Origin: Lentisphaeria bacterium
GTDB taxonomy: Bacteria; Verrucomicrobiota; Lentisphaeria; Oligosphaerales; Oligosphaeraceae
Direction of reading: 5' to 3'
Assembly (NCBI GenBank): GCA_016287975.1
Contig: JAEEXV010000218.1
Coordinates: 33,847-97,846 of the forward strand
Length of the DNA: 64,000 nt
The position numbers and the translations under genes were made by a program. This document shows positions 22,046 through 52,417 of this stretch, piece after piece. How positions within the stretch are numbered: the first letter of the stretch is position 1; every line of letters starts with the position of its first letter. The notes below the pieces were generated by a model. The model saw nothing but the letters and a program-made list of their open reading frames with translations. It had not been told where the DNA came from and made no database searches.

Positions 22046-22090
22046 ATATCAAAAACACCGATTGAAATACATCAAAAACACCGATTGAAT
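22025..22090. repeat. Three 23-bp-spaced iterons upstream of the ATPase gene
   Basis: The core TCAAAAACACCGATTGAA occurs at 22049 and 22072, with a diverged first copy (TCAAAAACACCGGATACA) near 22026. Starts are exactly 23 bp apart, about two helical turns, so a protein could bind all three on one face. They overlap the putative promoter and the 5' leader. Confidence 0.8.
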
Positions 22091-22108
22091 CATGTTAACA
22101 ATTTTGTT

Positions 22109-31341: not shown

Positions 31342-31425
31342 CAGAACGGGGAAGTGATTCTCTCCGCTTGACAAGCAAGGTCTTTTTACGCGATCATTCC
31401 GAACGGGGCAGCGGGGAACGCCAGC

Positions 31426-31638
31426 GACGGGTCTTGGGTCTCGGGTCTTGGGTCTTGGGTCCTGGGTCTTGGGTCTCGGGTCCTGGGTCCTGGGTCTCGG
31501 GTCCTGGGTCCTGGGTCGTGGGTCCTGGGTCGCGGGTCCTGGGTCGCGGGTCGTGGGTCCTGGGTCCTGGGTCGTGGGTCCTGGGTCCTGGGTCGTGGGT
31601 CCTGGGTCGTGGGTCCTGGGTCCTGGGTCCTGGGTCGT
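31426..31638. repeat. 7-bp tandem repeat TCNTGGG, about 30 units
   Basis: About thirty 7-bp units (TCTTGGG, TCCTGGG, TCTCGGG, TCGTGGG and TCGCGGG) run without a break. GGG every 4 nt makes this the strongest G-quadruplex candidate in the window, on the plus (non-template) strand, between the toxin gene and the type III chaperone promoter. All six frames stay open across it because the unit has no stop; the resulting Pro/Gly-rich ORFs are not real genes. Confidence 0.95.
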
Positions 31639-31688
31639 GGATTCCACTTGCACTGGCGGGGGATTTCAACTATTTGCGGCGAATTGCC

Positions 31689-31828: not shown

Positions 31829-32299
31829 ATGAAAACCATTGAAGACTACAAGACGTTTCTCTCGCAAGTCCGCCAGGAGACTGGCCTTTCGGCCATCAGT
31901 TCCGATGATTCAGGGCTGGTGACGGTCCGCGTGGACGACCGATACAACCTGAACCTCCAGTTCGTGGAGGCCACTGGCAGGATCCTCTGCTTCATCGAAG
32001 TCGCGACGCTCCCGAAGGACGCACCCAGGAAAGTCTACCGCGACCTGCTCATCGGCGGGCTCTTCGGCAAGGAGACGGCGGGCGGCTATTTCGCGCTGGA
32101 GGACGAAACCGAGGCCGTCGTCTACAACTATTTCTTCGACTTCGAGGACGCGTCCAAGGACATCTCCGAGTTCGTCTCCACGATGGAGAAGATTCTGCAA
32201 CTCTGCGATATCTGGGCGGACCGCATCCAGGAGATGCTGCATCCAGAAAAGGACGTGCCTGCGCTGGAGGCCCCCGCGGATTCGGTCATCCATCCGTAA
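31829..32299 (+). CDS. CesT/Tir-type type III secretion chaperone-like protein
   Basis: A small (156 aa) acidic protein with the class I T3S chaperone pattern. An N-terminal helix (YKTFLSQVRQETGL) leads to a three-stranded sheet (SGLVTVRVDDRYNLNLQFVE, then ILCFIEVATLP), a middle helix with GGLFGKETAGG, a strand (YFALEDETEAVVYNYFF) and a long C-terminal helix (SEFVSTMEKILQLCDIWADR). The GxATGG-like loop before the second sheet is a CesT hallmark. Such proteins dimerise and hold the N-terminal part of one effector unfolded for export. The next gene, 146 nt downstream, is a 1203-aa protein of unknown family, the usual place for the client. No type III apparatus gene is in the window. Confidence 0.75.
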   Translation: MKTIEDYKTFLSQVRQETGLSAISSDDSGLVTVRVDDRYNLNLQFVEATGRILCFIEVATLPKDAPRKVYRDLLIGGLFGKETAGGYFALEDETEAVVYNYFFDFEDASKDISEFVSTMEKILQLCDIWADRIQEMLHPEKDVPALEAPADSVIHP

Positions 32300-36059: not shown

Positions 36060-36298
36060 ACGCCCCGAAAATGGCAGCCACGGCGTCCGCCGTGGTCGCC
36101 CCGACGAGCAACGCAACGCACGATTCCACCGTCCAATTGCAAACCCTGTGTGGCTCACCCGCCCGCCACGGCGGGACGCCGTGGCTACGTCCGCTTCGTC
36201 AAGCGCGCGGCTCGGCCATGATCCCTCGTGAGGCAGGCAATTCGGCATGGCGACCTGGCGAAATGGCGATGGAACCGACTCTCATGGGGAACAGCGCG
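36060..36298. repeat. Dispersed inverted-repeat element, left end truncated
   Basis: Begins 3 nt after the effector stop with CGCCCCGAAAATGG and the palindrome CCACGGCGTCCGCCGTGG, contains GCAAACCCTGTGTGGCTCA and a second palindrome GCCACGGCGGGACGCCGTGGC in two halves, and ends ATGGGGAACAGCGCG. It closely matches the element at 37487-37734 in its middle. The outer GTTCCCC end is missing on the left. The last bases of the element supply the 5' leader of the flavin-binding gene. Confidence 0.85.
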
Positions 36299-36306
36299 AG
36301 GTGAAC

Positions 36307-36735
36307 ATGATCCGAAATCCAGAAAAGACTCTTGGCGCGCTCATCGACAGGTCTTCCATTGCGCAGCTTTGCTACATTGACAAGGACGGCTTTCCTGTCA
36401 CGCGCGCGATGCTGAAGCCAAGGGAACGCAACGGCCTCCGCGAGTTCTTCTTCACGACCAACACCTCCAGCGGAAAGGTGAAGGCCTTGCGGAACAACCC
36501 GAAGGCCAGCATCTACTTCGTCGACCGCCGTTTCTTCCGCGGCCTCAGCCTCGCGGGCACCGCGGAAATCCTGGAGGACGCCGCCACGAAAGAGCGGATC
36601 TGGCGGGACGGCGACGAGCAGTATTACCGCCAGGGCGTCACCGACCCAGACTACTGTGTCATCAAGGTCACGGTCCAGAACGGCCGCTATTACTCCAACT
36701 TCAAATCAACGGATTTCACGGTCCACACTGGTTGA
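36307..36735 (+). CDS. Pyridoxamine 5'-phosphate oxidase-family (FMN-binding split barrel) protein
   Basis: The start is ATG 36307 with GAGGTGAAC in front (142 aa, MIRNPEKTLGALIDRSSIAQ). The split-barrel pattern is visible: SIAQLCYIDKDGFPVTRAML, then REFFFTTNTSSGKVKALRNN, ASIYFVDRRFFRGLSLAGTA and the C-terminal VIKVTVQNGRYYSN. It resembles the small general-stress-protein-26 group that binds FMN or F420-like cofactors rather than true PdxH (which is about 220 aa). It is likely a cytosolic flavin-dependent reductase; the substrate is unknown. The gene is wedged between two copies of the dispersed repeat element and only 9 nt from the left one. Confidence 0.88.
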   Translation: MIRNPEKTLGALIDRSSIAQLCYIDKDGFPVTRAMLKPRERNGLREFFFTTNTSSGKVKALRNNPKASIYFVDRRFFRGLSLAGTAEILEDAATKERIWRDGDEQYYRQGVTDPDYCVIKVTVQNGRYYSNFKSTDFTVHTG

Positions 36736-36737
36736 TT

Positions 36738-37131
36738 CGCCTTGTGCCCAATAGCGGCGGCGATCGCCTGGCTCACGCCCCAAAAATGGTTGCCACGGCG
36801 GCCTCGCCGTGGCGGCTCGGTGAATGGCGGGCTGTCGATTTTGGAGCCTATGCTGCGCCTTGTGGCGGGCCCGATTGGACACCGCACGGCTTTCCTGCCA
36901 CGGAGGAGCCCCCGAAGGGGGGCTTTCTTAGGGAGACGCTTGGTTCCCCAAGAGGGTAGGCGATTGCCTGATTGAAGACTCCGAAAATGGTTGCCACGGC
37001 GGCCTCGCCGTGGCGGCTCGGTGAATGGGCGGCAGTCGATTCCGAAGCCTTGGCTGCGCCCTGTGGCGGGCCTGATTGGACACCGCACGGCTTTCCTGCC
37101 ACGGAGGAGCCCCCGAAGGGGGCGACGGCAG
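36738..37131. repeat. Two adjoining copies of the dispersed inverted-repeat element
   Basis: Copy one spans roughly 36738-36960 and copy two roughly 36948-37131. Both contain CCGAAAATGGTTGCCACGG or a close match, the palindrome GCCACGGCGGCCTCGCCGTGG in two halves, CGGCTCGGTGAATGG, and GGACACCGCACGGCTTTCC. A GTTCCCCAAGAGGGTAGG end separates them. There is no gene in this stretch; the overlapping open frames are repeat-derived. Confidence 0.85.
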
Positions 37132-37452
37132 CATAGCCAGGGGTGGAGGGCGCGTAGCGCCTGGAACCCCTGGGGGCGGATTCTTATTTTCCAGAGCCCT
37201 GCAAGGGCGGAAGGACCATAGCCAGGGGTGGAGGGCGCGTAGCGCCTGGAACCCTGGGGGCGGATTCTTATTTTCCAGAGCCCTGCAAGGGCGGAAGGAC
37301 CATAGCCAGGGGTGGAGGGCGCGTCAGCGCCCAGAACCCTTGGGGGCGGGGAAAAAACGATGGGAGCCCCGTAAGGGGCGGGAGGAAATCGTCCGCCCTT
37401 CCAGGGGTTCCACTCGCCGCTTCGCGGCTCGCTTTACCCCTGGCTATGCTCC
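37132..37452. repeat. 85-bp tandem units with an inverted copy at the right end
   Basis: Units beginning CATAGCCAGGGGTGGAGGGC start at 37132, 37217 and 37301 (periods 85 and 84 bp). Each includes a small hairpin (GGGCGC...GCGCCT) and ends CCCTGCAAGGGCGGAAGGAC. Between about 37392 and 37452 the reverse complement of the unit core appears (GGGGTTCCACTCGCC ... ACCCCTGGCTATG), so the array can fold back on itself. The same unit recurs at 63878. It is not a CRISPR: there are no variable spacers. Confidence 0.9.
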
Positions 37453-37486
37453 GACGCCCCCTTGCGGGGCTTTCTTAGACAAGGCG

Positions 37487-37734
37487 TTGTTCCCCAAGAG
37501 GGTAGGCGATTGCCCAGTCAAAGCCCCGAAAATGGTAGCCACGGCGTCCCGCCGTGGTCCCCCCGGCGAGCGACGCAGCGAACGATTTCGCCGCCCCATT
37601 GCAAACCCTGTGTGGCTCATCCACCTGCCACGGCGGGACGCCGTGGCTACGTCCGCTTCGTCAATCGCGCCCAACCCACAGGCTTCTAACGTGTCTGCAT
37701 TATGAGGGGCTGTTACCGACCTTCTTGGGGAACA
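37487..37734. repeat. Dispersed inverted-repeat element, apparently complete copy
   Basis: About 248 bp from GTTCCCCAAGAGGGTAGGCG to ACCTTCTTGGGGAAC. Inverted ends are followed inward by CCCCGAAAATGGTAGCCACGG on the left and a related inverted palindrome (GCCACGGCGGGACGCCGTGGC in two halves) on the right. No transposase gene is inside, as in MITEs. The stretch 37735-37792 up to the methyltransferase stop shows nothing else. Confidence 0.85.
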
Positions 37735-37792
37735 AAGCGTTAGGCAAAAATGCCGCGCATCTTTTCGGGAGCGCGTGTGGAAAAGTACGATT

Positions 37793-40700
37793 TCAAATCT
37801 TGTCGATTTCGGACATGAGCGCGGCGGTGCGGCGGAGGGCGCGGACGATGCGCTTGTAGTGCGAGATGTCGGCGTCGGAGAGCGTGCGGCCCTTGCGGTC
37901 CTTGAGCCATTTCTGCAACGGCTGGTAGCCGCCGATGTACTGGTTGAACGTCGCCTCTTCCACGCCCGTGAAGCGCGACTCCTTGTTGATGTACACGGAG
38001 CCGTTCTTCCACGACACCTTGCCGACTTCGCGACCGCCCGCATCCTCAAACGCCACGTCGTCCGCCTCGTTGAAGTCCTTCATCGTGTGGATCGCGACGA
38101 GCTGAGCGCCAAGCGCCGCCAGCGCGTGGAACGTCGCGGCGGATGTCGGGTACGGGATACGAGGGAAGTCGATCTTCAGAAACTCCTTGAACTTCTCGCG
38201 GTACGTCGGCGAATGCAATACGGCGTAGATGTAGTTGAAGATGTCTGCGGGTGTTGTTTTTTCGCCAAGCGCCGCCTCGATCTTCTTCACAATCTCCGAA
38301 TTCAGGTTCGGCACCTTCTGCATCTTCCCGTGATACTCCTCGTAGAGGTAAAGGGGAAAGACATAGCCACGCTCTTTCGTCTTGTTGGAAACAAAACAGT
38401 CATCCGCTATGCAATCGGTTACATTTGCCAATGCCCACGACTCTGTCGCTGATTGCCTACATGTTACTAAGCCAACATTACCCTGTTGTTCAAAATGCTG
38501 CATCACCGTAATACGAGTACGCCAAATACTCTTCGGCGAATAATTAACCCAGCGCTTGTCAAACGGTCGGTAATTATACGTCTTGATGACCTCAGGCAAA
38601 GGAAGATTTCCCAGTAAGAATTCTGCATAATTCTTACCTAGGCCAAATTGTTCTTTGAGAGAATCTTCTGCTGGCGTGTTTTCATTTACGTATTGGATTC
38701 TTTTCCCCAAAATATGTTTGTCGCTACAGACGACAAATGAATCCCCCATAGTAAGTACCGCCGTACTGTTTACCTTTATGAGTTTATCGATCCGGAACCC
38801 CCGGTTGTATTCTCCTTCGCCTTCGTTATTCTTTGGCACGAAGAAGCACATTGGTTCTTTTACTTCAACCGTCTGCCATTTAATCGAATTGAGCAAACCT
38901 TTCTCAAGTGCATCGTATTTATCTTCGCGCAAGCCCCACATGTCGGCGTAATGGACGATGTTTTGTGGCGGTCGCGACGCGCTCTTCGCTTTTGCGTCTC
39001 TGCGTTGGGAAATATTGCCGTGTTTCACGAAGATGTTGATGCTCACGCCCTGCATGATGTCAAATACGTTTTCGTCCTTAGTCCCGTCGGGGCAGGTTTC
39101 CTTCTTCTTCGCGTTGCCGTGCAGATTCAGCACATAGATTTCATCGAATGCCTGCATGAGATTCCACCTCATGCCACGGAAAGTCGGATTGTCAATGAAG
39201 CCATGCGGATTGATGTAGGCAAGAACTCCCGCTCCCCCACGTTCAACAAAGTGCTGCGCAAGGCGCATAAACTTCACATAGTCATCGTTCAGCCAGTTCT
39301 TACGCTCCTGAAGCTTCTGTTTTCCCCCTGGTTCGACCTTGTATTCATTGACCATTTTCGTGATCCATTCGCCGTTATTCTGCGAGATGCCCGAATACGG
39401 TGGATTGCCAATGATGATATTGATGCCGTTGTTTTTCTTGGCCCCGTTGGCGGCGACGGATTCTGTAGCGAGGGGATCGGAGTCGTGGATCCTGACCTGC
39501 AGTTCGGAGTCTCCAGGTTCCTCCAGCGAGTTGGTGAGATAGATGTGGAGTCGGTCCGATCCGGGGCTACTGAAGTTGTAACCTGTTTCTTTGAGTACCA
39601 TCGCGAGTTTCATGTGCGCGATGGCGTAGGGCGCCATCATCAGTTCGAAGCCGTTGAGGCGGGGGAGGACGTTGAGGTTTACGTAGTGGCTCCAGGCGGA
39701 GGATACGGCTGTCGCAGTCTGCGGCCGTCCCGATTTGGCGTAGTTCTTCTTGAAAGTATTGTGGATGGTAAGAATGATTTCGCGGAGGAAGGTGCCCGTT
39801 CCCGTAGCGGGGTCGAGGATCTGGATTACAGGGACTTCCTTTTTGCTGTTCTTCTTCGTTCCTTTTGAAGCGACCGTGATCGTCTTCTTTGTCTCGGTGG
39901 CGAGGCCGTCGGGGAGATTGAACTGCGTGCGGAGAATGTGATCCACGGCGCGGACCATGAAAGAGACGACGGGCATGGGCGTGTAGAACTCGCCGCACTT
40001 GACCTTTTGCTCCTTGTCGTACGCCTTGAGGAACTCCTCGTAGAAGTAGATGACGGGGTCCTCGCGTCCACCGCCCGTCTGCCTCCCGAAATCGGCGGCG
40101 ATCTTGGCTGCATCCACCTTCGCGAACATGTCCACCACGTCGGCGACGCCCAGCTCGTCGAAGGAGATGCCGCCGCCCTTCCGCACGGTGCAGCAGTCGC
40201 GCATCATGTTCTTGAGGAACGGATTCGTGTTCGGGATGAGGTCGATCGCCTCTTCGATGCTGAAGGTGTCGGGCGTCTTGTCCAGGCAGCGTGCGGAGAA
40301 GAGCCCGTAGACGATCGTCTGCGCGTACATGTCCGCGAAGTCGGATTCGTCGAGATCATGGACAAGCATGTCCTTGACCTTTTTGCATAGGAGGTGGATG
40401 AAGCCTTTCGCGGTCTCGACGCGCATCGCCTCGAGGATGCGCCCCTTGATGTCCTTGGCGACCTTCGCCATCCGCTCGGCGAGCGCGGCGGAGGTCTTGA
40501 TGACCTCGCCCCAGTACGTATCGAACGCCGCAGACCACGAGTTGTGCCACTTTTCGTAGTCGGACGTGTCTTTCGGCCATTCAAGGCGGGCGAGCCTCTC
40601 CTCGAAGTGGGCGAGAACGACGGGGTCTTCCATTGTCGGGGCGCAGTGGATCGTGCGCACTTGCGAGAGGGCGTCAGACTGCTGCTCGAAGTGCGCGGCG

Positions 40701-41101
40701 CAGATCGTGCGGTTGCCGCCCGTGCCCCAGAAACAGAGGAAGAGCAGGTCCTTCTCGTCCCAGACCGTGTGCATCGTGGCGTTGCGGCGCGTGGGGACGA
40801 GGCGGGAGAGAATCTTGCGGAGCGCGGTGACGGAGAACTTCTCCGTGTTGAACTCGACGCAGAAGATGCCCCACTGCTGGTTCGCCTCCAGTGGCGGCAG
40901 CTGGTAGAGCGACTTGATCTTGGCGAACTCTTCATCCTTCAGGCCAAGATCGTTCGCGTCGAACCCGTACGCGTAGTCCTCGACGTCGCTGAGATCATCG
41001 ATGCCGAGATTCCAGTTCAGGTGGTCGCGGAAATACCTGAGGAGTCCACCGAAGTCCGTCACGTCACGGATGTTCATGATGTCGTTCTCTACCAGTTTCA
41101 T
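37793..41101 (-). CDS. N6-adenine DNA methyltransferase with type ISP-like specificity region
   Basis: A 1102-aa protein. Motif I is ILDPATGTGTF (428-438) and motif IV IIIGNPPYSG (562-571), an N6-adenine (Asn-Pro-Pro-Tyr) methyltransferase; CGEFYTPMPVVSFMV (369-383) is the preceding cofactor-site helix typical of gamma-class enzymes. The long C-terminal half (YNYRPFDKRWVNYSPKSIW, CFVSNKTKERGYVFPLYLY) matches the target-recognition part of type ISP enzymes such as LlaGI. The first 350 residues hold a helical/unknown region without an obvious nuclease. AAAGGAGAACCACA precedes the ATG. It is the third gene of an operon: 12 nt after the AlbA_2 gene, itself after a PLD-helicase. The pair could supply the ATPase and nuclease parts that LlaGI has in one chain. 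Confidence 0.9.
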   Translation of the reverse strand: MKLVENDIMNIRDVTDFGGLLRYFRDHLNWNLGIDDLSDVEDYAYGFDANDLGLKDEEFAKIKSLYQLPPLEANQQWGIFCVEFNTEKFSVTALRKILSRLVPTRRNATMHTVWDEKDLLFLCFWGTGGNRTICAAHFEQQSDALSQVRTIHCAPTMEDPVVLAHFEERLARLEWPKDTSDYEKWHNSWSAAFDTYWGEVIKTSAALAERMAKVAKDIKGRILEAMRVETAKGFIHLLCKKVKDMLVHDLDESDFADMYAQTIVYGLFSARCLDKTPDTFSIEEAIDLIPNTNPFLKNMMRDCCTVRKGGGISFDELGVADVVDMFAKVDAAKIAADFGRQTGGGREDPVIYFYEEFLKAYDKEQKVKCGEFYTPMPVVSFMVRAVDHILRTQFNLPDGLATETKKTITVASKGTKKNSKKEVPVIQILDPATGTGTFLREIILTIHNTFKKNYAKSGRPQTATAVSSAWSHYVNLNVLPRLNGFELMMAPYAIAHMKLAMVLKETGYNFSSPGSDRLHIYLTNSLEEPGDSELQVRIHDSDPLATESVAANGAKKNNGINIIIGNPPYSGISQNNGEWITKMVNEYKVEPGGKQKLQERKNWLNDDYVKFMRLAQHFVERGGAGVLAYINPHGFIDNPTFRGMRWNLMQAFDEIYVLNLHGNAKKKETCPDGTKDENVFDIMQGVSINIFVKHGNISQRRDAKAKSASRPPQNIVHYADMWGLREDKYDALEKGLLNSIKWQTVEVKEPMCFFVPKNNEGEGEYNRGFRIDKLIKVNSTAVLTMGDSFVVCSDKHILGKRIQYVNENTPAEDSLKEQFGLGKNYAEFLLGNLPLPEVIKTYNYRPFDKRWVNYSPKSIWRTRITVMQHFEQQGNVGLVTCRQSATESWALANVTDCIADDCFVSNKTKERGYVFPLYLYEEYHGKMQKVPNLNSEIVKKIEAALGEKTTPADIFNYIYAVLHSPTYREKFKEFLKIDFPRIPYPTSAATFHALAALGAQLVAIHTMKDFNEADDVAFEDAGGREVGKVSWKNGSVYINKESRFTGVEEATFNQYIGGYQPLQKWLKDRKGRTLSDADISHYKRIVRALRRTAALMSEIDKI

Positions 41102-41113
41102 TGTGGTTCTCCT

Positions 41114-42985
41114 TTACTTCATGTAGTAGCCGCCGGTCTTCTTGCTGCCACGATGCTCGATCTTTCCGTCACGTCGAAGCGCTGCCAAAGCCTCCATTAC
41201 AATGGTCCTCCCCTTGCCTGTAGCTGCTATTAAGGCAGGTCCAGCCACTCCTGGCGTTCGAGAGATGACTTCCAGCAAGCCTTCTTTTATCGTCCGTTTT
41301 ATCGTCCGCTCACCGGACGATAAAACATTTACTCCCTCATTTAACGCCTCATCTATCGTGACATCAGGACGTTTTGTCGATTCATTTACAGTCTCGCTTA
41401 CAGTCTCATTCAAAACCCGCAGCCCCATATCCGTCAGAGAATAGCGAACGTTCGGATCATGCGGAGAAATGCCGTCTTTTAAGCATATAAGCCCATCTTT
41501 CAAGGCGGGATTGAGATAATTTCCCCTGAATGTCTGGCGGTGTTTTATGCCAACGGCAACCCGCAGTTCAGACGGCGAACAAGGCCCGTTTTTCAGAGCG
41601 GAAAGCAGTTTCCGAACTGGGTCGGTCACTGGTACGGTACTGGGTCGGTACTGGGTCGGTACTGGGTCGGTTACTGGTACGGTTATCGGGTCATCGGTGG
41701 CGTTCAGTTCGCGCATGGTCTTCGCATCGGACTGACGGAAATACTTGTGGATGGGCAGGACAAAGGTGAAGTAGTCCCGGCTTGCGTTCGTCTCGATGAT
41801 CGGCTTGGGCGAACCGTTCCTTTCGACCGCGCGCAGGATTGCGGGATAACCCGTGTTGCGCGCTTCGGCGAGTTCAAGTTCCTTCAGGAAGTCCCCGATG
41901 CGACGGTTTCTGTCCTGCTTGGCGAAAAGACGGAACTTTTCCAAGTCCGCTTTCCTGATCGACCTGTCTGGGCCAGGAAGGCTGTTGATCTCCATTCGAT
42001 CTGGCGTGAACGTGACGACGATCGGCTCCGGCTTGCGGTAGGACTTGTGGTAAACCGCATTGGCAAGCGCCTCTTCGATGGCGACATACGGATAGTTCCA
42101 GTGGCGCTCCGCCTCCGCGCGGTCGGACAGCTTGAACACCTTTTCCTGAAGCACGTAGTTCTTGATGAAAGCCAGCGCCTCGCGCAGCTGTATGTGCAGC
42201 GGCCCCTTGAAGTATTTCTCCGTCATTCCCTGCCCCGTGGGGTCGGGCTTGTCCACGACCTCGATCCACGCATAGCGGAAGAAGTCCTCGGGGTGCGGAT
42301 TGAAAAACAAAAGCCCCACATTGAGCGGCTTGACGTTTTCCTCCGCGCCGCGAACGATCCGCAGGTTCTTCCCAAGCTCCAACGGAGACATTCCCTCCGC
42401 CGCAGGGTAGAGGTCGCTGCCGACTTCGCGAAGGTAGTCCGCCATGAGGTTCACCTTGAGATCGGTGACTGCCGCCTGCATGTTGGGGCGGTCGTCAAAC
42501 GGAACGTCACCAGACAGTTCAAACAGTTCCTTCATGGCGGCACGGGACGCCTTCACCGTACTGGACATCTTGCGGATGAAATACGACTTGGGGGACTTCC
42601 CCTTCTTCAGAATATGGTCGGGACAGGCGTAGGGGCGCTCGTCGCCACCTGGTGCCCAGATGACGAGCAGCGTCTTTCCCTGATACTCAATCGGCTCGAC
42701 GACTGGCAGATACAAGGGTTCAATGAGATGGCAAACGCCCAGAAGCTCCTTCTGAATCTTGTCGATAGAATCAGACTGCAAGCCCTTTACTGGAAACATC
42801 GGCTTGCCGTCCTTCTCCGCAACGCCCAATATGACATACCCGCCACCCCAGTTATCGATGTCATTGGCAAATGCGCACAGGGTGTGGAGCACCTTTTCGG
42901 GATTCCATCCCTCCTTGTACTCGATACGCGCACACTCCACCTTGCGGTGGTTGACCAGATCGTCTATGTTTACTGGAAGGGCCAA
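41114..42985 (-). CDS. AlbA_2/Schlafen-type ATP-binding protein
   Basis: I propose the TTG at 42985-42983 as start (623 aa, ALPVNIDDLVNHRKV after the initiator), because GTGGAGGAAACGCC sits right before it; an ATG at 43024 would overlap the helicase by 26 nt. The N-terminal AlbA_2 (AAA_4) domain is clear: ARIEYKEGWNPEKVLHTLCA and GGGYVILGVAEKDG. A HATPase-like centre follows (NYPYVAIEEALANAVYHKSY), then winged-helix-like modules at the end. A low-complexity linker is encoded by an 11-bp tandem repeat. AlbA_2 proteins appear in several defence islands as regulators or nucleases. Here it joins helicase and methyltransferase, perhaps as a switch. Confidence 0.85.
   Translation of the reverse strand: MALPVNIDDLVNHRKVECARIEYKEGWNPEKVLHTLCAFANDIDNWGGGYVILGVAEKDGKPMFPVKGLQSDSIDKIQKELLGVCHLIEPLYLPVVEPIEYQGKTLLVIWAPGGDERPYACPDHILKKGKSPKSYFIRKMSSTVKASRAAMKELFELSGDVPFDDRPNMQAAVTDLKVNLMADYLREVGSDLYPAAEGMSPLELGKNLRIVRGAEENVKPLNVGLLFFNPHPEDFFRYAWIEVVDKPDPTGQGMTEKYFKGPLHIQLREALAFIKNYVLQEKVFKLSDRAEAERHWNYPYVAIEEALANAVYHKSYRKPEPIVVTFTPDRMEINSLPGPDRSIRKADLEKFRLFAKQDRNRRIGDFLKELELAEARNTGYPAILRAVERNGSPKPIIETNASRDYFTFVLPIHKYFRQSDAKTMRELNATDDPITVPVTDPVPTQYRPSTVPVTDPVRKLLSALKNGPCSPSELRVAVGIKHRQTFRGNYLNPALKDGLICLKDGISPHDPNVRYSLTDMGLRVLNETVSETVNESTKRPDVTIDEALNEGVNVLSSGERTIKRTIKEGLLEVISRTPGVAGPALIAATGKGRTIVMEALAALRRDGKIEHRGSKKTGGYYMK
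41638..41670. repeat. 11-bp tandem repeat inside the AlbA_2 gene
   Basis: Three perfect copies of TACTGGGTCGG (plus-strand reading), flanked by diverged copies (AACTGGGTCGG at 41616 and TTACTGGTACGG at 41671). The unit is not a multiple of three, so the same DNA is read in three frames (TDPV, PTQY, RPST). Gain or loss of one unit would shift the frame. Confidence 0.95.
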
Positions 42986-42998
42986 GGCGTTTCCTCCA

Positions 42999-45900
42999 CT
43001 ACGCGAGCTGAAGCCACGTGACAAGGCGCGGGGCCGCGCCGAGCGGCGCCTGGATCTTCTTCATGTAGGTGTTGCGGATGTGCTTCTCCATCATCTTGCG
43101 GATGGTGGGGAAGTCATCATGCCCGAGGGTCACGATGCGAGGCTCGTTCTTCTCGCACTGGATGGCATGCCAGATGGCCCCGACGTTCTCGGAGACGGTC
43201 TTTGCGGCGGGATCGAGGACAAACCATTTGTACATGCCTTCTTCCGCCATGGAGCCGTCAGACTTCCTGACGGGCAGCTCGTAGCAGAAGAACACGCCTT
43301 TCAGCTTGGAAGATGCCTTTCCGCTGTACATCTTGGCGGGCAGGTTCTTCACGTTGTCAATGTAGCCTGGATTGTCTTTGAGAAGCCGCTGGTAGGCAAG
43401 CGAGATTTCCTCCATTTCGGAGGGCGTGCCTTCGTACTGGGCGTTGAAGTCCTTCAGCGCGGCGAAGTCGTCGTCTGGCGTAAGCAGTTGCTTGCCCTCG
43501 ATGCCGAACAACTTGGAGATGCGGAGCGTCTTTCGGGAGACCGTCTGGTAGAGCGCGAGCAGGTTCTCGAGTTCATCTGGCGGAAGGAAGTTCCAGTAGA
43601 ACACTTCATCGCGATCCGAGGCAATACCAGGGTGGTCGGCAAGGAGCCGTGCCTCGACGTCGGCGCTGCGGCGGCGGTCCACGCGGCCGATGCGCTGCAT
43701 GAGGCGGACGGGGTTCCAGTGAAGCTCGTAGTTGACGAGGCGCGAGGCATCCTGAAGGTTAAGCCCCTCGGAAAGAACGTCGGTGGCGATGAGCGTATGG
43801 ATCTCGTTTCCGCCGATCGCGGCCGACGACGTTTCGTTGTAGTATGGGGCGAAACGCTGCACCATCTCGTGGCGGTCGCCCTTGCTCTGTCCGTCGATCT
43901 CGAACAGGCCTGCGAATCCAGCCTTTGACAGCTCCCGCTCCAGATACTTGGCCGTGGCGCGGTATTCGGTGAAGATCAGCACCTTGCGGTTTTGGAGGCG
44001 CGGGTCGTTGGCGAGCAGGTTCTTGAGGACGTTGAGTTTGTCGTCCTGCGAAGGATCGAAGCTGATCATGTCGCGGATGAGCTGGGAGAGGTTGGCAAGA
44101 TCGAGAACCGTATCGTCCAGCATGGCGCCGATGTCGAAGTCATCCTCTGAAAGGTCGTTGTCCTCGACGTCCCACACGTACTCTGGGAGGTCGTCCTCGA
44201 AATCCTCGATGCCTTCGTCCGCGCGGACGAGATTCACCCTGATGTACTGTTCGACGAACTCGATCACGTCGCGCTGCTGCGCAAGCGTCTTGTCGACGAG
44301 GTGGGCGTTCTTGTCGTGATAATCGGCGAGAAACGTCTTGAGGCGATGGTAGATGCGCACGCAGGTCTCCTGGAATGCGGCGACTGAACTCTCGAAGCGC
44401 TTCAGCAACAGCTGGCGAATGAGGGCCACGATCTGCTGCTGGCGTCCCATCTTCATTGGATCGACCTTGCTGAGGTCGCCCTTGTAGTATACCGCCTCGT
44501 ACGGGGAATAGACGGCAAGGGACAGAATCGGGATGGAGCGGCCGCGGGAGTCCCTGCGGTTGAAGAGCGCGGAGAAATGGTCGAGGAGCGCGCCGCACGT
44601 CGTGCGGAGCGAGTAGTCCGCTACGACGGGCTTCTTGATCTTCGGGAACAAGACCTGTGCGCCCTCTTCCGCGTCAAGGCTCTGCTTGACGTATGCGCGG
44701 CTGCGCTGGACGACGAGTTCCTTGATGAGCGGATCTGTCGAAAAGGCGGACTGGACCTGAACGGATGCGTCTTCGGCCGAAAGCGCGTCAATCTCCGCGC
44801 CAAGCTTCTTGAAGTGCCCAGAGAGGCTGTTGATGCCGAGGGACTTGAAGTAGTCGTCCTGGCGGTGTGTGAAGAGTTCGATCAAGTGCTGCAAGTCGAG
44901 GAGGCTGTTGTTGATCGGGGTGGCCGTAAGCATGAACAGCTTCTTCTTCTTCGCGTGATCCTCGGACATCATGTCGAGGAACTTGCGATACGCCTTTCCG
45001 CTCTGGTTGCGGAAGTGGTGCGCTTCGTCGATGATCACGATCTCACCTTGCGCGGCGATCTGCCCCATGAGGTTCTGCATCTTGTCGCGGATAAGGTCGG
45101 TATGGTTGACAATGCGGAATGGGAAGAATCCGTCAAGAAGATCTGGCATGTATTTGCGGATGGCAGTTTCCCACACGGAGACTCGTGCAGAAGCTGGAAC
45201 GGCGAGGACGACGTTCAGTCGCTCGCGCATGACAAAGCGCTCGATCAGCATGAGGCCGACGAACGTCTTGCCGAGTCCGACGCCGTCGCAGAGGAAGGCG
45301 CCCGAGTACTTGTCGGCGATCTCGACGAGGTTGTTGTAGCCGTCCCGCTGATATTGCGAAAGGACCTTGTACATGACGGATGACTCGCGCTCCCATTCCG
45401 AGACCGTTTTCTCCCTGCCCTTGAAGAACTCGTACATGGAACGCAGATAGACTTCGTAGGGCGAGTAGTCCTTGACGTGGTTCTCGACGATCTTGAGGAC
45501 GGCGGCGGTGATGTCCGTGCTTTCGTTCCAGCGGTCCTCGAACCAAGCCTGCAGTTCATCGACGTTGTCCTTGATTTGGACATTCAGCTCGACATTCTGC
45601 GTAAGCCCTGCGGCGGTGAAATTGCTGGAGCCGACGAGCGCATAGTCGCTGGGGATGTGCATGGAAGTGAGAAAGTGCGCGTGCACATCATCGCGAAAAT
45701 GCGTAATGTAGGCTTTCGCGTGGAACTTGCCCTTTTCGTAGACACGGCATTCAATCTTCCCGCTTTTCAGCGCGTCGACGATTGCGGGGACTCCCAGCAG
45801 GAAGTCGTTCTTGGACTGTTCCGCATCAAGGCTCGTCTGCATTTGGGATAGGAAGCCCTGCGCGGCGGCGTTGCGAAGCACAGAGGCCGTGCGCGGGGTC

Positions 45901-46094
45901 ACCTCGTTTCCAAGGATGATACGGATCTTGTCAAGTTGCTGCCAGTTCGTATCAAGCGTGAGCAGCCCGCCGATTTCAAGATAGCCTGTGGCGATGTCCA
46001 TCTGTGTGGAGAGGCCACACCATTCGGCAAGGTAGTGCTTGACAGACAATTGCTCGTTTGAGTTGTCAACAATGTAGAGATTGCTATTGTTCAT
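42999..46094 (-). CDS. PLD-domain SNF2-type helicase
   Basis: I choose ATG 46094 (1031 aa, MNNSNLYIVDNSNEQLSVKH); 35 further upstream codons look non-coding. Residues 1-190 form a phospholipase D-like nuclease half: GKFHAKAYITHF (His125, Lys127) and YALVGSSNFTAAG (Ser156, Asn158). The SF2/SNF2 motor has Walker A GVGLGKTF (271-278), DEAH box IIDEAHHF (354-361), TATPINN, and the C-terminal lobe with LIATDVLSEGLNLQDA and QRIGRVDRR. A degenerate PLD plus SNF2 fusion is a recurrent theme in defence loci. As the first gene of a three-gene operon it could provide DNA translocation and cleavage for the methyltransferase encoded two genes on. Its 3' end is followed after 13 nt by the AlbA_2 start. Confidence 0.92.
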   Translation of the reverse strand: MNNSNLYIVDNSNEQLSVKHYLAEWCGLSTQMDIATGYLEIGGLLTLDTNWQQLDKIRIILGNEVTPRTASVLRNAAAQGFLSQMQTSLDAEQSKNDFLLGVPAIVDALKSGKIECRVYEKGKFHAKAYITHFRDDVHAHFLTSMHIPSDYALVGSSNFTAAGLTQNVELNVQIKDNVDELQAWFEDRWNESTDITAAVLKIVENHVKDYSPYEVYLRSMYEFFKGREKTVSEWERESSVMYKVLSQYQRDGYNNLVEIADKYSGAFLCDGVGLGKTFVGLMLIERFVMRERLNVVLAVPASARVSVWETAIRKYMPDLLDGFFPFRIVNHTDLIRDKMQNLMGQIAAQGEIVIIDEAHHFRNQSGKAYRKFLDMMSEDHAKKKKLFMLTATPINNSLLDLQHLIELFTHRQDDYFKSLGINSLSGHFKKLGAEIDALSAEDASVQVQSAFSTDPLIKELVVQRSRAYVKQSLDAEEGAQVLFPKIKKPVVADYSLRTTCGALLDHFSALFNRRDSRGRSIPILSLAVYSPYEAVYYKGDLSKVDPMKMGRQQQIVALIRQLLLKRFESSVAAFQETCVRIYHRLKTFLADYHDKNAHLVDKTLAQQRDVIEFVEQYIRVNLVRADEGIEDFEDDLPEYVWDVEDNDLSEDDFDIGAMLDDTVLDLANLSQLIRDMISFDPSQDDKLNVLKNLLANDPRLQNRKVLIFTEYRATAKYLERELSKAGFAGLFEIDGQSKGDRHEMVQRFAPYYNETSSAAIGGNEIHTLIATDVLSEGLNLQDASRLVNYELHWNPVRLMQRIGRVDRRRSADVEARLLADHPGIASDRDEVFYWNFLPPDELENLLALYQTVSRKTLRISKLFGIEGKQLLTPDDDFAALKDFNAQYEGTPSEMEEISLAYQRLLKDNPGYIDNVKNLPAKMYSGKASSKLKGVFFCYELPVRKSDGSMAEEGMYKWFVLDPAAKTVSENVGAIWHAIQCEKNEPRIVTLGHDDFPTIRKMMEKHIRNTYMKKIQAPLGAAPRLVTWLQLA

Positions 46095-46301
46095 GACACT
46101 GCCCATCAGCGGAGTTGTATGTGACGGGATTCCTCCGTGAATCCAGAAAATAAGGAAAACGCGCTCGCCTTCGGCTTGCCACCTCTTCGCGGCTTCCATG
46201 GCAATGGGGAAGGTGTTCGTTTGCGTAAAGGAGAAAGCCGTGATAAGATAATATTCCTTCTTGGGCGTGCCAACCGAAATTCACATTTCCCGCGCCCTAT
46301 T

Positions 46302-46412
46302 TGTTCCCACAAAGGGGCGGTGACAGCCCCTCATAATGCAGACACGCCAGAAGCGTGTGGATGGGGCGCGATTGACGAAGCGGACGTAGCCACGGCGGGA
46401 CGCCGTGGCTAC
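46302..46412. repeat. Half copy of the dispersed inverted-repeat element
   Basis: Reverse complement of the right half of the 37487-37734 element: GTTCCCACAAAGGGGCGG, CAGCCCCTCATAATGC, GACACGCCAGAAGCGTG and the palindrome GCCACGGCGGGACGCCGTGGC in two halves. It lies 0.2 kb upstream of the helicase gene. A weak TTGGCA/TATCTT pair on the minus strand (near 46250-46272) could serve the helicase operon. Confidence 0.8.
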
Positions 46413-46507: not shown

Positions 46508-46641
46508 ATCGGGGGAGGCGTGAAGAAGATGAAAATGCATGGACCATTCTGGGGGCGGGTGCAAGGCGCGTGGGGCAGTCGGGGCGCCTGTCCTTGGGCG
46601 GCGTCCACTGAGGGCAATCATTCAATGGAGGCGAGCCGCTG

Positions 46642-47514
46642 ATGGAAGGCAACCGCCTGTCGTTTCATGGCGAGGGCGCCGTGGAGAAGATGCTGGGCTA
46701 CTGGCACGGGATGGAGGAGGTCGCGGGCGTGCGGCTGACGCTGCACGACCACATCGGGGCCTTCATCATGCCAGACCGCACGCGGCTGCTGCCAGACGTC
46801 AACGTCCACCATTTTCCGTGCTGCGAATATCGGAAGGGATCGCGGAAGCGGTGCGGCGCGCACTGTCGGATGGAGGCGATGGAGCGGGCGGCGCGGGAGG
46901 GCAGGCCCTTCCAGTTCTGCTGCTGGCGCGGCGTCACCGAACTGGTGATGCCGCTGTTCCTGGGGAAGGTGCACGCCGCCACCATCTTCGTCGGCGCCTT
47001 CCGTGACCCCGACTTCGATCTTTCGGGCTTTTCGCCGACCTACCGTCGGCTGTATGCGGCGATGCCCGCGTGGGACGAAGGGCGGCGTCCGATGCTGGAG
47101 ACCGTGCTGGTCGCCTCGGGCTACTCGCTGCTGCTGCTGGCCGCGAACCTCCGCGCGCAGTTCGCCGAGGAGACTGGGCGGCGCGGGCAGATCCACCGCT
47201 TCTTCCTCTACCACTTCAAGGAGCCCGTGACCGTCCCCGACCTCGCGGGCGAACTGAACCTCTCCGAATCCCGCACCCTGCATCTGCTGCACGAACTCTT
47301 CGGCAAGGGCTTCTCCGAACTCCTGAACGAGGAGCGCGTGCGCCATGTCGAGGAATACCTGCTCAACTCCGACTATTCCCTGCGCGAAATCGCCCGCATG
47401 ACGGGCTTCCGCAACGAATACTATCTGAGCGCCGTCTTTCGGCGCCTGCGCCGAACCACCCCTGGCGCCGTGCGGCGAAACGCCCTCGCGAACCCGCCGC
47501 CGAGGAGGACGTAG
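46642..47514 (+). CDS. PocR-domain AraC family regulator
   Basis: A 290-aa regulator with GGAGG 10 nt before the ATG. Residues about 10-190 match a PocR-type sensory domain: a run of cysteines at 60-61, 71, 75 and 93-94 (FPCCEYRKGSRKRCGAHC, FCCWRGVTELVMPLF) and a typical VGAFRDPDF strand. The C-terminus has one clear AraC HTH (REIARMTGFRNEYYLSAVFR) and a more degenerate first HTH (TVPDLAGELNLSESRTLHLL). PocR domains are thought to bind small hydrocarbon or sugar-derived ligands; the clustered Cys could bind a metal. It converges with the GH3 gene, whose stop is 151 nt away, and may control it. Confidence 0.88.
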   Translation: MEGNRLSFHGEGAVEKMLGYWHGMEEVAGVRLTLHDHIGAFIMPDRTRLLPDVNVHHFPCCEYRKGSRKRCGAHCRMEAMERAAREGRPFQFCCWRGVTELVMPLFLGKVHAATIFVGAFRDPDFDLSGFSPTYRRLYAAMPAWDEGRRPMLETVLVASGYSLLLLAANLRAQFAEETGRRGQIHRFFLYHFKEPVTVPDLAGELNLSESRTLHLLHELFGKGFSELLNEERVRHVEEYLLNSDYSLREIARMTGFRNEYYLSAVFRRLRRTTPGAVRRNALANPPPRRT

Positions 47515-47665
47515 AGGCGGCGGCCGCGAAAACGGGAATGGCAGACGCAATCCAGCGGGGCGGACTTCATCATCGCAAGAAACGCGCGGCATTTCCCTGA
47601 GGACATGATCCCCGTGCCGTCCCCGACAGACTTCCTGGCGCTGACCCATTGAGCCGCCAGGCGGT

Positions 47666-50395
47666 TCACACGGGGTCGATGCGCAGCGCGCCGAGGCTGG
47701 CGAAGTGGGTGTCGGTGGTGTCGCGGGTATAGATCTTCAGGTCGTGTTCGCCTGCGTCGAGGGTGAACTCCCAGGGGCCAGTGGTCTGGAAGGCGTGCAT
47801 GCCGCCAGTCGGGGCGACGGGGAGGAGGCCCAGGCTTTTTCCGTCGACGACCGCTTCGAGGCGCGTCGTGTCGTGGACGGCGGCGGTGCGGGCCGAGAGG
47901 CGGTATCGCCCCGCCTCGGCGCGGAGGCAGTATCGGATGAAGACGTCCTGGCCGCGCTGGTCCTTGCAGAGTCGGGCGTGGCAGAGGCGGCTGAAGGCGT
48001 CGTCGCAGACCTCGAGGCGGGTGATGTTGCAGGAGATCTCGCTGATCTCCTGCGGGAGGATGACGAGGGGGCGCGCCCGCGTCAACTCGAAGACCCGCCC
48101 CAGGTCGTGGTCGCGGAACTTCCTGGTCTTCCGCACCAGTTCCAGCACGCGCCGCGCGCTGCGGCGGACGGCTTCCAGCGGGAGGAGCGTCCCGAGTTTG
48201 CCGAGGGCCATCTCGAGTTCCTCGGGGTAGCCGAAGGGCATCTTGATGTCGTTTCCCGCGAGGAGTTCCTGCCACAGGTGGGAGTTGTTGCGCCAGTCGG
48301 TCATGACGAGGCCGTCGAAGCCCCATTCGTCGCGGAGGATGCCCGTGAGCAGGTTGCGGAAGGTGCTGACCTTGACGCCGTTCAGGGAATTGTAGGCGCT
48401 CATGATGCAGTGCGGGCGCCCGATCCTGACGGCGATCTCGAAGTTCCTGAGGTAGATTTCGCGCAGGGCGCGTTCGGAGACCATGCTGCTGCAGAAGAAG
48501 CGGTATTCCTCCTTGTTGTTGGCGGCGAAGTGCTTCAGGGTCGCCGAGGTGCCCGTGGACTGGATGCCGCGCACCATGGAGGCGGCGATGGTGCCTGAAA
48601 GCACGGGATCCTCGGAGTAGTACTCGAAGTTGCGGCCGCAGAGGACGTCGCGGTGGAGGTTGAGGCCAGGGGCGAGCATGATGTCGATGCCGTTGGCGTC
48701 GGCCTCGCGCCCCATGACCGCGCCGAGTTCGAAGATGGCCTCGTGGTCCCAGGAGCAGGCCGCCAGCATCGGCGAGGGCAGGCTGCTCGTGGGGACGGCC
48801 AGGCGCACGCCCGCAGGCCCGTCGGCGGTCTGCGGGTTGGGGACGCCGTATTGCCGCAGGTCGCCGATGCCCGCGGTGCCGTGCGGGAAGGCGGGCAGCT
48901 GCGCCTGGCACAGCCCCAGCAGTTCGCGCGGGGAGAGCTGGTCCAGGAAGTCGTCGAGGGTGATTCCGTTGCCGCCGACTTCGGAGAGCTGGATCTTCTG
49001 TGTGGCCTCGGAGGCCGCTTCGCGGGCGGCGGGCTTCGGCGATTCGCCGAGGGCGTCGATGAAACTGGATTCGACGGACAGGTCCTCCGAATCGGCGTCG
49101 GGCTGCTCCGCGACGAAGGTGCCGCGCACGGCGGGCGCCTTGCCTGGGACGAGGGTGCGCCGAAGGCCAGGCGTCAATTTCAGGCCTGGCGTGGAAAGGC
49201 ATCGGTCTTCGGTGAAATCGACCTTCCCAGCCGCGAAGCGCTCGCGGACGGAGCCGCCCAGCGTGATGCGGTAGCGGCCTTGCTCGACGACCCAGCTGCC
49301 TGGCGGTGCGAGGATGCCATCCTCGTCGAAGACGGCGAGGTCGCCTGCCTTGCACGAGAGTTCGAGGTCGGCGCTTTGGCCAGGCTGGAGCAGGGGGGTC
49401 TTGGCGAAGCCGCGCAGTTCGGCGGCGGGGCGGTCGAGGCGCGAGGGCGTCTCAAGTTCGCTCCACAGCCCGAGGCTCTCCCTGCCCGCCACGCGGCCCG
49501 CGTTGGCGACGCGGCAGCGGGCGCGGATGGCGTCGCCGTCGGCGTGGAACGCCAGGAGCTCGTGCGTGAAGGCGGTGTAGCTCAGGCCATGCCCGAAGCA
49601 GTAGACGACCTTGGCCTGTTCGCTCTGGCAGGCCTCGAACCAGCGGTAGCCGACGAAGACGCCCTCCTCGTAGTCGACGCGGAACTTGGAACGGCGGAAA
49701 CTCGCGCTGCTCGGATAGTCCGCGTAGGCGGCGGCCCAGGTGTCGACCAGGCGCCCCGACGGATTGACCGCACCCAGCAGGACGTCGGCGATGGCGTGCC
49801 CCGCCTCGCCGCCTGGCAGCCCCGCGAAGAGGATCGCGGCGACCTCGGGCGCCTCCGCCAGTTCCCGTATGCCCAGGACGCCGCAGGTGTTCAGCACCAC
49901 GGCCAGCCGTCCAGGGAAATGCCGTTTCAGCAGGGCGAGCAGTTCGGTCTCGGCGCGGGAGAGGCGGAAGTCCCCCTCGGCGTCCTGTCGGTCGAGCCCC
50001 TCGCCGGAGTTGCGGGAGAGGATCCACACGGCGGCGTCGCACCGCGCCGCCGCGGCCGCCACCGCCGTCGGCGCGGGGGCGAAATCCGCGTCTTCGCGAT
50101 AATTGTCCAGCAGGTCGTGTTCCAGCTGCAGCCGCCCCTGCGCCTCGGCTTCCAGCAGCGCGTCGGCGAGTTCGACGGTCGCGCCGTTGAAGACGTCGGC
50201 GCTGCCCGCGCCGCCCTTGACCAGATGGAACTGCGCGGCGCCGAAAAGCGCCACGCGGCGGCCCTCCCGCAGCGGCAGCGCCGCAGGATCGTTCTTCATC
50301 AGGACCATGCTTTCCGCCGCGATCCGCCGCAGCGCGGGGCGGTGCCGCGCCATCAGTTCCATGTCGCCGATTTTTCCCATCATGTCAACAGGCAT
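47666..50395 (-). CDS. Beta-glucosidase-like GH3 enzyme with permuted domain order
   Basis: A 909-aa protein whose GH3 domains are in reverse order. The GH3_C alpha/beta sandwich comes first (AAESMVLMKNDPAALPL, LPGGEAGHAIADVLLG, VNPSGRLVDTW), followed by a fibronectin III-like part, and only then the (beta/alpha)8 barrel (ADGPAGVRLAVP, LAPGLNLHRDVLCGRNFEYY, KHFAANNKEE) with the nucleophile Asp700 in GFDGLVMTDW. The final about 150 residues resemble a beta-sandwich CBM (GRYRLSARTAAV). No signal peptide. Permuted GH3 enzymes are known from gut and rumen bacteria and hydrolyse beta-glucosides or related glycosides. It faces the PocR-AraC gene. An alternative start is Met5/Met6. Confidence 0.93.
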   Translation of the reverse strand: MPVDMMGKIGDMELMARHRPALRRIAAESMVLMKNDPAALPLREGRRVALFGAAQFHLVKGGAGSADVFNGATVELADALLEAEAQGRLQLEHDLLDNYREDADFAPAPTAVAAAAARCDAAVWILSRNSGEGLDRQDAEGDFRLSRAETELLALLKRHFPGRLAVVLNTCGVLGIRELAEAPEVAAILFAGLPGGEAGHAIADVLLGAVNPSGRLVDTWAAAYADYPSSASFRRSKFRVDYEEGVFVGYRWFEACQSEQAKVVYCFGHGLSYTAFTHELLAFHADGDAIRARCRVANAGRVAGRESLGLWSELETPSRLDRPAAELRGFAKTPLLQPGQSADLELSCKAGDLAVFDEDGILAPPGSWVVEQGRYRITLGGSVRERFAAGKVDFTEDRCLSTPGLKLTPGLRRTLVPGKAPAVRGTFVAEQPDADSEDLSVESSFIDALGESPKPAAREAASEATQKIQLSEVGGNGITLDDFLDQLSPRELLGLCQAQLPAFPHGTAGIGDLRQYGVPNPQTADGPAGVRLAVPTSSLPSPMLAACSWDHEAIFELGAVMGREADANGIDIMLAPGLNLHRDVLCGRNFEYYSEDPVLSGTIAASMVRGIQSTGTSATLKHFAANNKEEYRFFCSSMVSERALREIYLRNFEIAVRIGRPHCIMSAYNSLNGVKVSTFRNLLTGILRDEWGFDGLVMTDWRNNSHLWQELLAGNDIKMPFGYPEELEMALGKLGTLLPLEAVRRSARRVLELVRKTRKFRDHDLGRVFELTRARPLVILPQEISEISCNITRLEVCDDAFSRLCHARLCKDQRGQDVFIRYCLRAEAGRYRLSARTAAVHDTTRLEAVVDGKSLGLLPVAPTGGMHAFQTTGPWEFTLDAGEHDLKIYTRDTTDTHFASLGALRIDPV

Positions 50396-50416
50396 CGCGA
50401 TGCGATGTCAATCGCT

Positions 50417-50640
50417 ATGCTCCCCAAGAGGGGCGCTAATTGCCTCAACTGTGCAGAATGTTCAACCAGAGATGTCCACAAAGACGTTGCCACGGCGTCC
50501 CGCCGTGGCGGTGTCTATCGTGGAAGGCACGCTTCATGCCCGAAACCGGTCGTTCGCCGGGGGGCCACGGCGAGGACGCCGTGGCAACCATTTTCGGGGC
50601 TTCCACTGAGGCAATTGCCGACCCGTATGGGGAACAGCGC
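50417..50640. repeat. Dispersed inverted-repeat element, complete copy
   Basis: About 224 bp. Left end GCTCCCCAAGAGGGGCGC, CAATTGCC-type core and TTGCCACGGCGTCCCGCCGTGG; right end the reverse arrangement (CCACGGCGAGGACGCCGTGG, CCATTTTCGGGGC, GCAATTGCCGACCC, ATGGGGAACAGCGCG). The two ends pair imperfectly over about 60 nt. It separates GH3 from the AAA-ATPase gene. Confidence 0.85.
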
Positions 50641-52346: not shown

Positions 52347-52417
52347 GCGGTTTCTCCCGGTTCGGGCGATGGACATACTATAGCGCACAAATCGCCCGCA
52401 ATGTCACGCCATGTCGG

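Follow-up and report, generated by a model that had tools for sequence, protein, structure and literature searches.

The window analysed here, a stretch of 64,000 nucleotides (nt) from a Lentisphaeria bacterium (contig JAEEXV010000218.1, positions 33,847 to 97,846; assembly GCA_016287975.1), contains an operon of three genes, which encode a helicase with a fused HKD nuclease, a Schlafen-type AlbA_2 protein and an N6-adenine methyltransferase (MTase). Comparison of related loci revealed that the helicase and the MTase form a conserved unit, and the operon probably encodes a two-subunit ATP-dependent restriction-modification system together with one accessory effector. A first-pass annotation of the sequence had proposed that all three genes make up a distinct restriction-type system; the restriction-type character with split subunits is supported, whereas a system composed of all three genes is not. 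The operon contains the following features:

42999..46094, minus strand: HKD (PLD)-nuclease/SNF2 helicase of 1031 amino acids (aa), ATG at 46094; predicted motor-nuclease subunit of a restriction system
45528..45779, minus strand: PLDc_2 match in the helicase (HxK...GSSN), one HKD motif per chain
41102..42998, minus strand: cargo slot, from the helicase stop to the MTase start; insert at the same junction in 20 of 83 related loci
41114..42985, minus strand: protein of 623 aa with AlbA_2 (Schlafen-type), GHKL ATPase and winged-helix domains, which occupies the slot as cargo
37793..41101, minus strand: N6-adenine MTase with ISP-type specificity domain, 1102 aa, ATG at 41101; putative modification/specificity subunit
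40511..41101, minus strand: MTase residues 1-197, an N-terminal domain without a known family that may dock to the helicase
38252..39424, minus strand: equivalent of the swap block (MTase residues about 560-950), second half of the MTase and its target recognition domain (TRD); the pattern was seen in relatives, not on the window itself

All three genes lie on the minus strand and are separated by spacers of 13 nt (42986-42998) and 12 nt (41102-41113); genes and spacings agree with the first-pass annotation. The AlbA_2 gene starts with TTG at 42985, with GGAGG 7 nt upstream, and the helicase start at 46094 is supported by relatives of 1028 aa, which align across the whole 1031-aa protein. Pfam searches identified PLDc_2, SNF2-rel_dom, ResIII and Helicase_C in the helicase (run on a longer 1066-aa open reading frame (ORF) from 46199), SLFN_AlbA_2, HATPase_c_4 and Fic-like_C in the AlbA_2 protein, and N6_Mtase/Eco57I and Type_ISP_C (233.9 bits) in the MTase, which also contains the motifs DPATGTGTF and NPPY. 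The proposed split of nuclease and motor from an ISP-like MTase is thereby borne out, with PLDc_2 and SNF2 on the helicase and Type_ISP_C on a separate ORF. The PLD domain of the helicase possesses H125/K127 and GSSN, and Walker A (with K276), DEAH and motif VI are present in the motor. H125 and K127 were found in 50 of 51 helicase rows, the remaining one having a gap, and S156-S157-N158 as well as the checked residues of Walker A, DEAH and motif VI in all 51. Since each chain has a single HKD motif, the active site would need two chains, as deduced from SauUSI (excerpts of PMC7913695). Gene linkage, split-ISP anatomy, conserved motifs and the cargo slot are established at the level of sequence.

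A conserved helicase-methyltransferase pair

Genome contigs were scanned with the helicase alignment, and the best 80 of 375 confirmed loci (numbered with L) were kept. Six loci were added from 387 genomes of the phylum of L080, in which the helicase was found in seven genomes at E 1e-80, one of them being the L080 genome already counted. The total of 86 refers to loci, not genomes: L075 and L077 share one assembly, and L012 and L017 are among near-copy helicases; L081-L090 and L097-L137, which are repeats of counted loci or were fetched for other searches, stand outside it. An MTase-like ORF (phmmer E 1e-5 to the window MTase) is located downstream of the helicase on the same strand in 83 of the 86 loci, and all 89 MTase-like ORFs in these loci are downstream and co-oriented, with none upstream or on the opposite strand. 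The exceptions to pairing are L042, in which 33 nt of contig are left, L037, in which 1.1 kb with a DUF3800 gene are left, and L051, in which an IS1595-type transposase follows. The MTase starts at most 210 nt from the helicase end in 63 of the 86 loci and at 385-2342 nt in 20. The commonest direct distances, measured as start minus end, are 13 (9/63) and 14 (8/63); for the two window junctions, the values are 14 and 13. The adjacency of helicase and MTase is not due to chance, and the pair is a conserved unit. Rare co-occurrence, which the first-pass annotation had named as grounds for refuting its proposal, applies to AlbA_2 but not to these two; with AlbA_2 beside the helicase in just 1 of 86 loci, a conserved three-gene system was rejected.

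The MTase-like ORFs are not uniform: 14 of 83 score below 150 bits, two of which are cut or broken (L007, L028), and several weak ones have another specificity domain (TaqI_C in L080, DUF7008 in L029). In some loci, the MTase (L002:13104-16391, L036:3689-5973) or the helicase (L028:10001-13096) is split into two ORFs, which may reflect assembly error, decay or phase variation. The loci are spread over Bacillota, Spirochaetota, Pseudomonadota, Myxococcota, Chloroflexota, Planctomycetota, Acidobacteriota, Nitrospirota, Kiritimatiellota, an archaeon and others; L005 belongs to a cultured relative, Butyrivibrio sp. AE3009. In a Bacillota sample, the helicase was detected at E 1e-150 in 1 of 398 genomes, the centre genome itself. 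Viral contigs scanned with the single helicase contained no relative and phage records no match at E 1e-60; 12 plasmid records match at E 1e-60, all with less than 30% identity.

PADLOC annotates the MTase alone as 'Type IIG' (PDLC03610 REase_MTase_IIG, 773 bits), and DrdV, a one-chain restriction enzyme (7lo5, a solved methyltransferase-DNA complex), matches MTase residues 198-1102. The MTase could accordingly be a Type IIG enzyme that is sufficient by itself, with an unrelated helicase as its neighbour. However, no Pfam family matches at E 1 within MTase residues 1-200, which also lack a conserved D...(D/E)xK set among 26 aligned sequences, and together with the linkage in 83 of 86 loci this makes the Type IIG explanation very unlikely. 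A nuclease at the MTase N-terminus appears unlikely from the same two results, which leave room for an unknown or degenerate fold. In the VIA comparison, none of the 50 matches listed aligned from before MTase residue 197, a result that carries no weight. PADLOC assigns the helicase (1066-aa form) to 'HKD+Snf2' C3a139 with 207.5 bits and to HmaA with 79.5 bits. No PADLOC profile match describes helicase and MTase as one system, and the earlier suggestion that the operon differs from described systems withstood this search for the pair.

Specificity block and comparison with known systems

The TRDs were compared in 51 rows (50 loci and the window) with a complete MTase, which gives 1275 pairs; 36 of the 86 loci were left out of this count, as their MTase is incomplete, weakly matching or short, or their helicase is short. 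In 21 pairs, which are not mutually independent, the helicases are at least 80% identical, and in 19 of these 21 the TRDs are less than 40% identical. Median identities in the close pairs are highest in the coupler (86.9%) and in MTase residues 20-197 (82.3%), intermediate in the MTase core (69.9%) and the C-terminal part (67.0%), and lowest in the TRD (24.7%). Among L008, L017 and L025, helicase identity amounts to 93-95%. The helicases of L008 and L017 are 95% identical, and their MTases share 92-100% per 40-residue bin up to residue 360, then 80, 56, 94, 94 and 80% in five bins to residue 560, 7-60% in residues 561-960 and 72-95% thereafter. Identity profiles in 40-residue steps of 12 close locus pairs place the divergent block at about residues 560-950. 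The divergence of this block between close relatives is evident from the alignments, and specificity would change when the stretch between about MTase motif IV and the TRD end is exchanged, a pattern displayed by relatives of the window system.

The partial rank correlation with helicase identity is 0.45 for MTase residues 20-197, 0.32 for the core, 0.24 for the coupler and 0.10 for the TRD; as a hint for docking, it is confounded because the 'core' (346-700) includes part of the divergent block, which lowers the core value. The coupler and the first half of the MTase are likewise well kept in close pairs. Docking of the helicase via MTase residues 1-197 is thus at most a lead that the alignments offer.

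The window system shares a gamma-MTase and an ISP-type TRD with Type ISP enzymes. LlaGI and LlaBIII, however, are single chains with an Mrr-type nuclease, as described in excerpts of PMC3874165, whereas motor and nuclease are located here on a separate HKD-SNF2 protein. Helicase and MTase are separate ORFs with AlbA_2 between them, and the nuclease found is PLDc_2 on the helicase instead of a PD-(D/E/Q)XK domain of the Mrr type; the system is therefore not a Type ISP member. It probably works like one; the motor motifs of the helicase are present, and ATP-driven translocation and two-site cleavage would be expected.

In the Type IV enzyme SauUSI, a single chain likewise combines a PLD nuclease at its N-terminus with an SF2 motor behind it, and a dimer of its PLD domains forms the active site (both from excerpts of PMC7913695). 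Methylated DNA is recognised by a C-terminal TRD of SauUSI itself, whereas recognition is predicted here to reside on the partner MTase. As this studied PLD-helicase chain is modification-dependent (according to parts of PMC7913695 and PMC12707154), the window helicase might also attack modified DNA, or exclude it without cleavage, with the MTase in a regulatory role. No SRA-like reader was detected on the helicase, neither in the Pfam scan nor in its last 233 residues at E 1, and the TRD divergence points to sequence-specific self-marking by the MTase; a Type IV-like mode is the least probable of the alternatives considered here. CglI and NgoAVII are also multi-subunit ATP-dependent restriction systems with a PLD nuclease and a helicase-like ATPase, which cleave after collision on DNA (portions of PMC5737866 and PMC7913695). 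In these systems, the R subunit combines DNA recognition (with B3) and the PLD nuclease, apart from the ATPase, whereas the window system has its nuclease fused to the motor, with recognition predicted on the MTase.

Type-2 BREX-related (BR) systems are described in excerpts of PMC12839542 with an SNF2 helicase that carries an N-terminal HKD nuclease, as in the window, an N6-MTase partner and Schlafen-HATPase-wHTH proteins as auxiliary effectors. The window operon might be such a DUF499 system minus its ATPase, in which the HKD-helicase and MTase described by that source are left and DUF499 and DUF3780 are gone. Type-2 BR systems are, however, centred on the DUF499 ATPase, and DUF499 was found neither beside the operon in the scanned ORFs nor in the five large neighbours scanned in related loci (5 of 26 neighbour ORFs of at least 850 aa). 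The neighbours scanned in the window include 46618-47649 (no family), 47666-50395 (GH3) and 36247-36735 (PNPOx). DUF3780, which that source gives for 98% of Type-2 BR taxa, did not turn up in Pfam scans of neighbours, although no search with its own profile was made. The helicase scores far lower with HmaA than with C3a139, and a derivation from Type-2 BR is distinctly unlikely.

The helicase is distantly related to DrmD of class 1 DISARM (116.2 bits in PADLOC; 135.7 bits in NCBIfam versus a cut-off of 610), but no DrmA or DrmB gene is present among the adjacent ORFs scanned. No PglZ or BrxC was found among the scanned window ORFs, a selection of the larger ones, and the MAD2-type methyltransferase profile of MADS gave 37.2 bits versus a cut-off of 720. 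Membership in BREX, DISARM, MADS or Type-2 BR was rejected, since partners are missing among the scanned ORFs or scores are far below cut-off; the first-pass annotation had already set the operon apart from BREX and DISARM, which the profiles support for the selected ORFs. In open-licence PubMed Central literature, no description of the helicase-MTase pair or of the slot was recognised; REBASE was outside the scope, and absence from print is not shown by this. Downstream of a related operon, L080:11597-12556 has a possible FokI-type cleavage domain (24.9 versus a cut-off of 25 bits).

The cargo slot and the AlbA_2 protein

An insert separates helicase and MTase in 20 of 83 loci. A co-oriented gene that matches a known family is part of 19 of these inserts, the exception being L077. 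The slot scan covered co-oriented ORFs, and opposing ORFs only where these were longest. In other loci, the slot is filled with toxin-antitoxin modules, nucleases or other genes:

L057, L058, L070: HTH_37 with or without Gp49, which we take to be a HigBA-like pair
L029, L078: PIN
L076: PemK
L093: Zeta toxin
L095: HTH protein with a sub-threshold MqsA match, plus a sub-threshold SecB match
L039: DUF5615 with a sub-threshold PIN_10 match
L052: AbiEii, weak
L074, L094: DUF1016 with or without YhcG nuclease
L040: PDDEXK_3
L075, L096: DUF3800
L091: ORF6N
L047: AAA_16
L004: two cytosine methylases
L080: AlbA_2 (phmmer and hidden Markov model)

Of the 20 inserts, 10 are of the toxin or antitoxin type; for L095, L039 and L052 among these, the assignment relies on weak matches. 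In a helicase tree with 92 rows, whose SH-aLRT support comes from a short search and in which cargo was counted without L057, L058, L070, L093 and L095, the DUF3800, PIN, DUF1016 and AlbA_2 cargo each need as many changes as there are rows, set against rows of other cargo kinds, so that separate insertions are likely. As a rough control, co-oriented ORFs within 400 nt upstream of the helicase (56/67 loci) or downstream of the MTase (46/55) were collected, and 97 of 102 were scanned as one set; the five longest (1262-2214 aa) were left out, the one in L044 being scanned separately. The spectrum outside the pair is unlike that of the slot and is headed by phage integrases (6/97), DUF3800 (4/97) and AAA_16 (4/97); PIN, PemK, HTH_37, Gp49, Zeta and DUF1016 do not belong to the 25 commonest of 87 outside families and each occur in at most 2/97.

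The tight spacing of the three genes and the presence of AlbA_2 between helicase and MTase also in L080, which belongs to another helicase clade, so that the gene was placed there at least twice, would fit a true three-component system, in which AlbA_2 is obligatory, for example as an ATP-dependent adaptor between motor and MTase. Yet 63 of 86 loci have the MTase directly behind the helicase, 85 of 86 have no AlbA_2 in the flanks fetched, and 0 of 19 further AlbA_2 contexts has a core gene among the ORFs shown. An obligatory role is unlikely, and the claim that AlbA_2 is the third component of the system is not supported; it is one of many different inserts.

The AlbA_2 domain is recognised with 53 bits versus a cut-off of 25.3 (SLFN_AlbA_2). 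E17, E22 and K24 are present in all 30 aligned rows and position 57 is acidic in 28; acidic residues of this kind are catalytic in Schlafen RNases. The GHKL N-box E304/E305/N309 is likewise found in 30 of 30 rows, and the winged-helix tail is variable. A structural model (mean predicted local distance difference test (pLDDT) 76.9, predicted template modelling score (pTM) 0.46) gave DIP2311 (3lmm) as best fold match, with an AlbA_2-type domain (2kyy) among the next, and the N-domains of SLFN5 and SLFN13 matched weakly in the fold search (E 0.010 and 0.018). Relatives of the protein were found in 16 of 387 genomes of the phylum of L080 (E 1e-90) and in 2 of 398 of the Lachnospiraceae phylum (E 1e-100). 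The AlbA_2 rows of the window and L080 are located on different branches of the helicase tree, which requires two changes. According to excerpts of PMC12839542, at least 1017 taxa have Schlafen proteins with this three-part layout next to BREX and BR systems, and several Schlafen-linked systems are able to cleave tRNA and to bring about abortive infection. In light of this layout, the AlbA_2 protein is read as a mobile backup effector, probably of the RNase type and controlled by its GHKL ATPase and winged-helix domains.

Several observations were made beside these genes. Among the neighbours of five AlbA_2 contexts scanned, a TOTE primase-helicase (AEP-TOTE conflict-system genes) is located near AlbA_2 relatives (L116:5249-8074, L123:308-2788). 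On separate contigs, genome G163 carries an AlbA_2 relative (L122) and the helicase-MTase system, the latter with DUF3800 as slot cargo (L096), and a Schlafen group 3-type helicase match is found downstream of the MTase in L005:16748-17866 and L018:16790-19666.

Proposed mechanism and surroundings of the operon

In the two-subunit restriction-modification system proposed here, the MTase would, judging from its homologs, recognise a short asymmetric DNA site via its ISP-type TRD and methylate one adenine per site, thereby marking self DNA. It might also recruit the helicase, perhaps via its N-terminal domain. At unmethylated sites, the SNF2 motor would pump along DNA, and when two complexes meet, the two HKD domains would pair into one active site and cut, a scheme modelled on SauUSI, CglI and LlaGI. 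The AlbA_2 protein in the slot between the core genes may serve as an RNase-type backup effector. More speculatively, and with considerable doubt, the pair could represent a separate, widespread split, HKD-powered ISP type with a standing guard slot, whose interchangeable cargo (toxins, toxin-antitoxin modules and RNases, in the window a Schlafen/GHKL protein) is co-translated, restrained by the intact restriction complex and released when a phage disables this complex, with specificity block and death effector being independently exchangeable. Should helicase and MTase indeed act as one system, an ATP-dependent restriction barrier whose specificity is readily exchanged would be present, unrecognised, in many genomes, and PADLOC's REase-MTase label (Type IIG) would be misplaced for this MTase family. 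The recurrent toxin-antitoxin and nuclease inserts between the core genes offer a natural series for asking whether restriction systems guard themselves with backup killers.

A number of points weigh against the proposed system and its accessory effector. In the helicase, H or Y stands in place of the acidic residue of the classical H-x-K-x4-D/E motif. The close pairs L035/L046 and L060/L061 have TRDs more than 80% identical, the close pairs depend on each other, and the window's own TRD is part of none of them. DUF3800 and AAA_16 are not specific to the slot, given their frequency outside the pair. The link of AlbA_2 to the system comes down to two loci, the window and L080, since the gene was found in 1 of 86 loci within the fetched flanks and the 19 further contexts, several of which are short contigs (e.g., L128, L134), displayed no window-type helicase or MTase among neighbouring ORFs; moreover, L080 carries a different MTase type (TaqI_C).

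The GC (guanine-cytosine) content of the operon is 0.51-0.59 (2-kb windows, 38001-46000) versus 0.60-0.72 within about 10 kb on either side and 0.54-0.72 in the rest of the window, and the window helicase groups with gut Bacillota sequences in the helicase tree. Both results suggest that the operon may have been horizontally transferred. With one aldo/keto-reductase gene as query, matches at E 1e-60 were obtained in 3 of 221 genomes of the phylum of L080 and in 0 of 179 of the Lachnospiraceae phylum. The operon is flanked by two repeat arms:

37627..37736, no strand: downstream arm of an inverted repeat, 110 nt, 87% complementary to 46300-46409; member of a repeat family
46300..46409, no strand: upstream arm of the inverted repeat, pairs with 37627-37736

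The core of the inverted repeat recurs at 36165, 37538, 46389 and 50489. As it is shared with other intergenic sites of the window, the arms were dropped as ends of a mobile element, and no such element is claimed. An intergenic repeat family with a palindromic core is present at 36087-37670 and 50414-50635, with 10 matches (at most three mismatches, both strands) versus 0.01 expected. Near the operon, but not part of it, a protein with AAA-ATPase_like and PDDEXK_9 matches is encoded at 50649-52388 (minus strand). Further away, the window contains two AAA_14/DUF4143 ATPases close together (21821-23401 and 23867-25066, plus strand), a tandem array at 31393-31679 with spacings of 14 and 21 nt and 12 overlapping copies, a CesT-family (type III secretion chaperone-like) ORF at 31829-32299 (plus strand) and several carbohydrate-related genes.

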